From the NCBI GenBank assembly GCA_022447665.1, contig JAKVAQ010000007.1, forward strand, positions 1 through 40,718: a stretch of 40,718 bases of DNA, in the 5' to 3' direction. The stretch is from Crocinitomicaceae bacterium (GTDB lineage Bacteria; Bacteroidota; Bacteroidia; Flavobacteriales_D; Crocinitomicaceae). Positions 35,899-36,159 of this stretch are shown one piece after another. The notes beneath the pieces were generated by a model that had not been told where the DNA came from, did not search any database, and saw nothing but the letters and a program-made list of their open reading frames with translations. The translations under genes were made by a program, and so were the position numbers. Every line of letters starts with the position of its first letter. Position 1 is the first letter of the stretch.

Positions 35899-35971
35899 GG
35901 TGATGTAGCTCAGTTGGTAGAGCAACGGACTGAAAATCCGTGTGTCGGGGGTTCAAATCCCTCCATCACCA
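35899..35971 (+). tRNA. tRNA-Phe (GAA)
   Basis: A 73-nt cloverleaf. The acceptor stem GGTGATG pairs with CATCACC. The D arm is AGCTCAGTTGGTAGAGC. The anticodon stem ACGGA/TCCGT encloses the loop CTGAAAA, giving anticodon GAA. The T arm is GGGGGTTCAAATCCCTC. The discriminator base is A and the CCA is not encoded. It is followed by a terminator, and its 3' 17 nt are copied at 36104. Confidence 0.97.
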
Positions 35972-35973
35972 CA

Positions 35974-36008
35974 AGACCGGTAGACTAGATCTATCGGTCT
36001 TTTTTTTG
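35974..36008 (+). terminator. Terminator of tRNA-Phe
   Basis: AGACCGGTAGA pairs with TCTATCGGTCT (11 bp, one G-T) around CTAGA, followed by a T run of eight. Confidence 0.88.
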
Positions 36009-36103
36009 TCCGAACGAGTCGAATTCTATTCGAACGAGTGCTGGTAAAAAAAATAACGCATTGTTAATGCGGTCTTGTGGTTAACCTTTTCGATTCACGC
36101 AGT

Positions 36104-36159
36104 AAATCCCTCCATCACCACAAGACCGGTAGACTAGATTTATCGGTCTTTTTTTTGTC
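36104..36159 (+). repeat. Copy of the tRNA-Phe 3' end and terminator
   Basis: A 56-bp direct repeat of 35955-36010 with a single mismatch (T for C), offset 149 bp. It includes the last 17 nt of the tRNA and the whole terminator, but not the rest of the tRNA. The 93 bp between the copies contain a 9-bp direct repeat (CGAACGAGT at 36011 and 36031) and a CGCATT/AATGCG hairpin (36057-36071). Such a partial 3' duplication is what tRNA-targeting integrases leave behind, but no integrase is present. Confidence 0.85.

Follow-up and report, generated by a model that had tools for sequence, protein, structure and literature searches.

A displaced tRNA-Phe tail in a Crocinitomicaceae genome as the probable relic of a tRNA-linked GIY-YIG nuclease unit

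Why does an intact tRNA-Phe gene carry a second copy of its own 3' end and terminator a short distance downstream? The question is raised by positions 35,899 to 36,159 of the window, by which we mean the whole stretch of DNA analyzed here, 40,718 nucleotides of contig JAKVAQ010000007.1 from a Crocinitomicaceae bacterium (assembly GCA_022447665.1). An integrase scar is the customary interpretation of a partial tRNA duplication. An earlier note on this DNA had proposed the footprint of integration at a tRNA 3' end, left either by an element that had lost its core or by a tiny cassette. The locus comprises the following features:

35069..35779, minus strand: coaX, type III pantothenate kinase, the divergent neighbor (Pfam PF03309, 7e-38; synteny)
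35899..35972, plus strand: intact tRNA-Phe (GAA) (ARAGORN; Rfam RF00005, 78.4 bits)
35955..36010, plus strand: repeat copy A, tRNA positions 57-73 and the native terminator (direct repeat)
35973..36007, plus strand: intrinsic terminator of tRNA-Phe, a 12-bp stem and a T run
36011..36103, plus strand: spacer of 93 bp, too short for a nuclease ORF (blastx, shuffle tests)
36057..36071, plus strand: small hairpin CGCATT-GTT-AATGCG with a 6-bp stem
36070..36081, plus strand: 12-nt inverted repeat of the boundary between tRNA and terminator, complementary to 35968-35979 and 36117-36128
36104..36159, plus strand: repeat copy B, the displaced tRNA-Phe tail ("echo") and a second terminator

The near-perfect 56-bp repeat, its spacing of 149 bp and the 93 bp between the copies were all confirmed: 55 of 56 positions are identical, the one difference being C35991/T36140. 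The repeat starts at tRNA position 57, inside the T-loop, and ends past the T run of the terminator; of the tRNA it takes in 17 nt ending at the discriminator, or 18 if the following C is counted, and the terminator is included in full. Similarity continues more weakly beyond this core in a direct repeat of 74 nt with the same spacing (35955-36028 versus 36104-36177, 91%). The second terminator retains the 12-bp stem of the first. The two fold at -16.5 and -13.9 kcal/mol, and 0 of 200 shuffles was as good for each of them. The small repeat and the hairpin that had been noticed between the copies are likewise real. The repeat is direct and 16 nt long (81%), with copies at 36004 and 36024, and the spacer contains one copy and part of another; the hairpin is CGCATT-GTT-AATGCG. 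This hairpin and the 12-nt inverted repeat, which could pair with either tail, lie at the junction of the broken tRNA copy, but the window has no clear T-loop palindrome. The stretch 36056-36128, which contains the inverted repeat, folds with a z of -4.5, and the short junction stretch folds weakly.

It is extremely unlikely that the echo is a second tRNA-Phe gene that decayed after simple tandem duplication. Full tRNA-Phe genes do occur in tandem in two relatives (G005, 200 bp apart; G046, 104 bp), but decay would be gradual, and here 55/56 identity on one side of a sharp edge meets nothing tRNA-like on the other. The shape of the repeat, running from the tRNA 3' end through the terminator, is that usual for tRNA integration, in which case the displaced tail would be attR, the intact tRNA attL and the element between them lost. 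However, only 93 bp are left between the copies, and none of the ten ORFs tested between 27.3 and 40.6 kb matched an integrase in Pfam; three matched no family at all. Eight of these ten cover 27.3-35.1 kb; the other two are coaX and a long PKD/CHU_C surface protein (Pfam) that also flanks the repeat. An Rfam search of the window gave tRNA as the sole credible family, with RtT absent even at E<=10.

Tail copies recur at other tRNA genes. In the window's own genome (4.06 Mb, 84 contigs; 40 tRNA genes found by ARAGORN in the fetched stretches), 10 of the 40 are followed, 49-264 bp downstream, by a repeat of their own 3' end, and none has one upstream outside other tRNA genes. The carriers are Val (two copies), Cys, Pro, Gln, His (two genes), Met, Ala, Gly and Phe. 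Three related closed genomes add 10 of 122 tRNA genes (5/58 in G004, 2/35 in G037 and 3/29 in G053). The scan used a 14-nt tail with at most one mismatch within 500 nt and left out matches inside other tRNA genes, such as those between one pair of full tandem tRNA-Glu genes. Pooled over the four genomes, tail copies were found downstream at 20 of 162 tRNA genes, upstream at 0 and in reverse complement at 0, which excludes a chance origin of the downstream copies; head copies, conversely, were found 0 times downstream and 5 times upstream. Within the stretches of a few kb fetched from the own genome, 16-nt tail copies beyond 500 bp were absent, and in the relatives the search covered 400-1200 bp around each tRNA, a range that islands with a distant second copy would escape. 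In 21 of 23 copies the start lies at tRNA positions 57-60 (position 54 in one, 37 in one), a clustering that is partly aided by the method, as the 14-nt seed forces a start at or before position 60 and the T-loop is conserved. As an observation in its own right, the tRNA-Asn gene of G037 (L230) is followed by three further tail copies with a period of 122 bp, an ORF-less array whose spacer contains GAGAAGTTTA.

Such copies could form by a tandem duplication of the rtT type, in which the polymerase would stall at the hairpins of the T-arm and the terminator, template switching would duplicate the stretch between them, and palindromes would be by-products or dispersed repeats that settled in a useless copy. 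Both ends of the duplication in the window do lie at hairpins, the T-loop edge and the terminator, and tyrT of Escherichia coli has the same edge with a spacing of 178 bp and no annotated GIY-YIG nuclease gene within 4.5 kb. None of the spacers between own-genome tail copies is long enough for a GIY-YIG ORF. As further counter-evidence to a nuclease origin, this genome has tail copies, and the GIY-YIG genes listed near its tRNAs are a broken one at tRNA-Asp and one at tRNA-Met without tail copy. Given these short spacers and these broken or copy-less genes, copies could arise without a nuclease. In the four genomes, ORF-less copy junctions fold better than windows 3' of copy-free tRNAs (23 versus 524, p 9e-7), in a test biased towards a nuclease unit by the natural tRNA stems in the scored stretches and the random controls; the Phe junction of the window, a short stretch at -7.9 kcal/mol, is the weakest but one of the 23. 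Nevertheless, a duplication of this type leaves unexplained that members of one GIY-YIG clade occur between such copies and are largely sorted by tRNA type, and it does not account for the deletion derivative at locus L154 described below. We therefore consider it a possible but rather unlikely origin of the echo.

The same tRNA-Phe site in relatives shows what can stand between such copies. Divergent coaX lies 71-374 bp upstream of tRNA-Phe in 25 of the relatives' 29 loci (L006-L034), a comparison set with no genome of the window's own genus. The exceptions are L012, with coaX downstream, L006 and L021, where coaX was not found, and L028, which is cut by a contig end; in L285, a longer stretch of the same genome as L006, coaX is located 1.9 kb downstream. 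Most of these tRNA-Phe loci have no 17-nt tail copy on the 3' side. The earlier note had regarded the same short duplication in distant relatives, if free of any insertion, as a sign of simple tandem duplication, and the relatives provide both pictures: G030 (+173) and G042 (+141) carry ORF-less tRNA-Phe tail copies whose spacers differ from each other and from that of the window, whereas in G020 and G044 the tRNA-Phe terminator is immediately followed by GIY-YIG ORFs, and coaX is divergent in both. G044 has two GIY-YIG units there and a tail copy at +499. In G020, inspection by eye found only a degenerate tail after the ORF and, upstream of the intact gene, a tRNA-Phe copy with two palindrome-like inserts. 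A further GIY-YIG ORF, in G021, lies between two broken tRNA-Phe copies that share one palindrome and adjoins an assembly gap; coaX was not found in the fetched stretch, and this tRNA-Phe is taken to lie elsewhere and is not counted as a coaX-linked site. Two of the Phe GIY-YIG proteins were tested and matched PF01541 at 3e-17 and 1e-13.

These observations bear on two further explanations. An integrase has one core, whereas the tails found here are specific to each of many tRNAs, and the ORFs seen between relatives' copies encode GIY-YIG nucleases. The partial 3'-end duplication proposed by the earlier note stands, and so does its reading as an element with a lost core or a tiny cassette, but an integrase as its source is not supported; we regard an att scar as very unlikely. 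Alternatively, the echo could be kept as a regulatory device, acting through tandem terminators or a read-through small RNA. Both terminators are intact, the inverted 12-mer has its two possible partners, and an sRNA between the double terminators of E. coli rRNA operons has been reported (PMC8144298). However, the three ORF-less tRNA-Phe copies have spacers that differ between genomes, and most of the tRNA-Phe loci printed lack a tail copy, which leaves such a function with a minimal probability.

A search of 39 genomes with PF01541 yielded, among the matches listed, 97 rows with fetched context, chosen by hand as open frames under about 200 aa together with two longer ones (L118, L123); in several rows the context ends at a contig end. 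Among these listed matches, 41 of 97 GIY-YIG rows follow a tRNA of the same strand within 700 bp, and a tail copy accompanies 19 of the 41; 1 of 97 has an antisense tRNA within 700 bp. The tRNA types of these 41 listed rows are Asn (9), Asp (8), Met (8), Val (5), Ala (5), Phe (3) and Arg, His and Leu (1 each). We built a tree of 94 of the proteins, without L118 and L123 and without the second, partial match of L136, by a quick method on 100 columns; 37 of its 91 inner branches stayed open. A single branch (SH-aLRT 98) has 38 of 50 rows tRNA-linked on one side, as against 2 of 44 on the opposite side. Over the linked rows, the tree requires 11 changes of tRNA type and 33 of genome label. Met, Asn and Asp require 2, 3 and 4 changes for 8 rows each, and 0 of 500 shuffles was as clustered; the corresponding figures are 36 of 500 shuffles for Val, 12 for Phe and all 500 for Ala, whose 5 rows are scattered with 5 changes, rendering the clustering by tRNA type imperfect. 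This pattern fits nucleases that would mostly stay with one tRNA type, and a similar picture would be expected from long vertical persistence at one tRNA.

Several single loci deserve mention in this context. In the own genome, downstream of tRNA-Asp lie a broken GIY-YIG ORF and a copy of tRNA-Asp that two hairpins interrupt (G000:C16:66768-67200; L049/L098), and an open GIY-YIG ORF without tail copy lies 366 bp 3' of tRNA-Met (G000:C9:95586-96234; L096) and groups with tRNA-linked ORFs of two other genomes. At tRNA-Asn (L136, L172, L188), the C-termini of the GIY-YIG proteins, for example ..LAQLVRVPHLRD, appear by eye to be the translated broken tRNA copy. Viral contigs provided one relative, L371 (IMGVR_UViG_3300028786_000154), in which a GIY-YIG gene is followed, as judged by eye, by a palindrome-broken tRNA-Leu-like remnant in which ARAGORN calls no tRNA.

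The anatomy of the unit is clearest in a scan with three Phe-lineage proteins, from which we analyzed the best 80 of 188 loci, mostly Bacteroidota and mostly metagenome-assembled. A tRNA lies upstream within 700 bp in 22 of these best 80 of 188, a fraction biased by the query being tRNA-linked itself, and 14 of the 22 have a tail copy. In 50 of the other 58 a tRNA starts within 150 bp of the match end. Within these 50 loci of the best 80 of 188, 42 repeat the first 12 nt of the tRNA upstream of the ORF with at most one mismatch, and in 34 the ORF stops inside the tRNA, often at position 10 or 23. One intact tRNA is kept in both the 3' and the 5' form. Head copies in the best 80 of 188 also occur in the CPR (Saccharibacteria, Roizmanbacteria, Parcubacteria, Shapirobacteria, Magasanikbacteria and another Patescibacteria), in three Planctomycetota and in one Nitrospirota; matches of Lloydbacteria, Colwellbacteria and Ignavibacteriota in the same set are tRNA-adjacent without a head copy, the one in Lloydbacteria having a tail copy. 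The GIY-YIG clade is characterized by a same-strand tRNA directly adjacent, and in many cases the opposite flank carries a partial copy of the tRNA with a palindrome inserted in it. Separately, the own genome contains at G000:C35 (L041/L093) two truncated heads of tRNA-Arg(tcg) with the hairpin CTCCTTTGGGAG, in tandem upstream of the intact gene. They resemble an ORF-less 5' form; downstream of the gene, a tyrosine recombinase-like stretch was noticed by eye only.

Junctions could be scored where a head or tail copy was detected, that is in 56 of the best 80 of 188 loci. Their best hairpin has a median of 9.5 compared with 5.5 in same-locus controls, and 39 of the 56 reach or exceed the 95th percentile of the control, helped by the natural tRNA stems contained in the scored stretches. 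An exact 20-mer palindrome, CCTGCCTGCCGGCAGGCAGG, occurs close to the GIY-YIG match in 19 of the best 80 of 188 and in none of the others; wherever the locus was printed, it sits in loops of the broken tRNA copy. CCTGCCTGCCGGCAGGCAGG is a dispersed repeat too, present in 24 of 296 Bacteroidota genomes and absent from the own genome; taking one locus for each of these 24, 4 are within 900 bp of a tRNA and 1 is with a GIY-YIG gene.

Three palindromic candidates were considered on their own and rejected. A GC-rich palindrome as the sole agent was dismissed, most inspected copies not being near tRNAs. The GATTCACGCAGTRAATC of the spacer as a REP family fell away with 15 places in the own genome versus 10 for the reversed pattern (up to 3 mismatches). 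The hairpin motif GAGAAGTTTA..GAGCGnAGTCGA is common to several own-genome tail copies and occurs, with up to 3 mismatches, 7 times in the own genome versus 0 for the control, 5 of these just 3' of tRNA genes; as a common denominator it was rejected, being exact in only 2 of 299 genomes of the order, own included. The same motif is also found at G000:C8:35645-35670 and G000:C31:37873-37898 (L113, L115), at the 3' ends of two protein genes ending in DDVCVIGVRV and with degenerate gene-end copies downstream (by eye). To judge from these two sequences, 3'-end echoes may not be limited to tRNA genes.

Loss of the ORF can be traced at one tRNA-Ala (L154, G044). Among successive units there, the ORF-less second matches the ORF-bearing third over the last 147 nt, including the 3' end of the ORF, and the terminator at the unit start is common to both; the second is a GIY-YIG unit with most of its ORF deleted. 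Arrays that mix short and GIY-YIG spacers were found at L133, L154, L172, L179 and L199. Presence and absence at a single tRNA were observed in one genus, in which a Ser-Pro-Arg tRNA cluster is found in 13 of 14 genomes, the 14th being cut at a contig end. A GIY-YIG unit follows tRNA-Arg in 2 of the 14 (G010, G110), and the fetched locus of the other 12 contains no GIY-YIG match. As judged by eye, the terminator after the broken tRNA-Arg copy of G010 is closely like the one after the intact tRNA of the unoccupied G155, and the intact tRNA-Arg of G010 has a different terminator. In G110, also by eye, the intact tRNA-Arg is identical to the genes of G081, G092, G102 and G140, and the broken copy is of a different sequence type, similar to the gene of G118. 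These comparisons suggest that insertion may have replaced or duplicated the tRNA, rather than placing the unit beside it.

The pattern in G010 and G110 is the basis of a speculative cleave-and-rescue reading. The nuclease would destroy the resident tRNA gene, which would persist only as a palindrome-broken remnant, and the unit would provide or restore an intact tRNA next to the nuclease; loss of the unit, or lack of the rescue copy, would put a cell at a disadvantage. The window would then represent an exhausted end stage on tRNA-Phe. We put this reading of the units forward tentatively and think it unlikely.

We consider it probable that this segment of the window derives from a GIY-YIG nuclease unit linked to tRNA-Phe, of which it would be an ORF-less relic, and that it is not an integrase scar. 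This assignment draws on location, anatomy and analogy, to which the sequence adds a hint at most. A blastx comparison of the spacer with the 94 GIY-YIG proteins aligned 21 residues (43%, E 0.009, sense strand) with the C-terminal portion, REKY.KTTAGK, of a GIY-YIG protein that is tRNA-linked, and 8 of 1000 dinucleotide shuffles were as good (3 of 1000 for the sense strand only), this weak match being one among four comparisons. Against the DNA of three tRNA-Phe GIY units, 56, 113 and 18 of 200 shuffles were as good as the spacer, and no trace emerged from these comparisons. At most, therefore, the spacer may carry a faint trace of a nuclease. Because a GIY-YIG ORF (PF01541) is absent between the copies, we file the window as a probable relic and not as a member of the class; its 93-bp spacer would once have held the ORF.

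An intact unit consists of a tRNA 3' end with its terminator, a small GIY-YIG ORF and a partial tRNA copy with the same tail, often interrupted by a palindrome; in the mirror form, a broken tRNA head and the ORF precede the intact tRNA. In the mechanism that we envisage, the nuclease would cut tRNA genes of its own type, and repair by recombination of the cut gene with the tRNA pieces that flank the ORF would insert or multiply the unit. One tRNA gene would remain intact throughout, and the second copy, truncated or interrupted, would have no tRNA function. The repeated tail and terminator would allow units to expand, contract and lose their ORF, and short tail echoes such as that of the window would be the residue of this loss.

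Small GIY-YIG units appear to be a second source of partial tRNA duplications besides integrases, and they occur in several phyla. In cellular chromosomes, these free-standing units keep largely to one tRNA type. The small unit is probably selfish. Should the units home, they would be selfish elements of very small size that live on essential genes. They could then explain rtT-like repeats as well as some 'partial tRNA' annotations, and phage SegB would gain a testable chromosomal counterpart. A title and abstract search of the open-licence literature, weak evidence of absence, returned no description of chromosomal tRNA-linked GIY-YIG units.

Four known systems invite comparison. Integrative elements use att sites in tRNA 3' ends and partially duplicate the tRNA 3' end. 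The latter feature is shared by the units described here; unlike such elements, however, they are tiny, no integrase was found, and the tRNA type largely follows the GIY-YIG lineage. The rtT repeats (RF00391) of E. coli tyrT/tyrV (annotated rttR, tpr) resemble the window's tail echo in shape, in starting in the T-loop (position 58 in all four rows, which represent three distinct copies, versus 57 in the window) and in spacing (175 and 178 bp and a further 178 versus 149 bp), with one copy lying between the genes and so also upstream of tyrV. They differ from the units in that no GIY-YIG gene is annotated within those 4.5 kb around tyrT, and the window differs from them in lacking the Rfam RtT match. 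Dispersed palindromic repeats (REP-like) are comparable in that CCTGCCTGCCGGCAGGCAGG recurs near GIY-YIG genes in broken tRNA copies, but in Bacteroidota this palindrome mostly lies away from tRNAs, and it is missing from the window's own genome. By analogy, the working of the chromosomal unit would be most like that of a free-standing homing endonuclease unit such as SegB of phages T4/T6, a GIY-YIG enzyme whose listed hosts include phages of Bacteroidota (PMC13096335). There, too, the nuclease gene adjoins tRNA genes, and tRNA and nuclease are amplified in tandem via short homology between the tRNA and segB ends (PMC13096335). SegB is, by contrast, phage-borne and amplifies a full-length tRNA, and the passages considered mention neither palindromes in loops nor fixed remnants of a tail or head (PMC13096335). 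Clustering by tRNA type, palindromes and a broken tRNA copy set the chromosomal units apart from SegB as portrayed in those passages.
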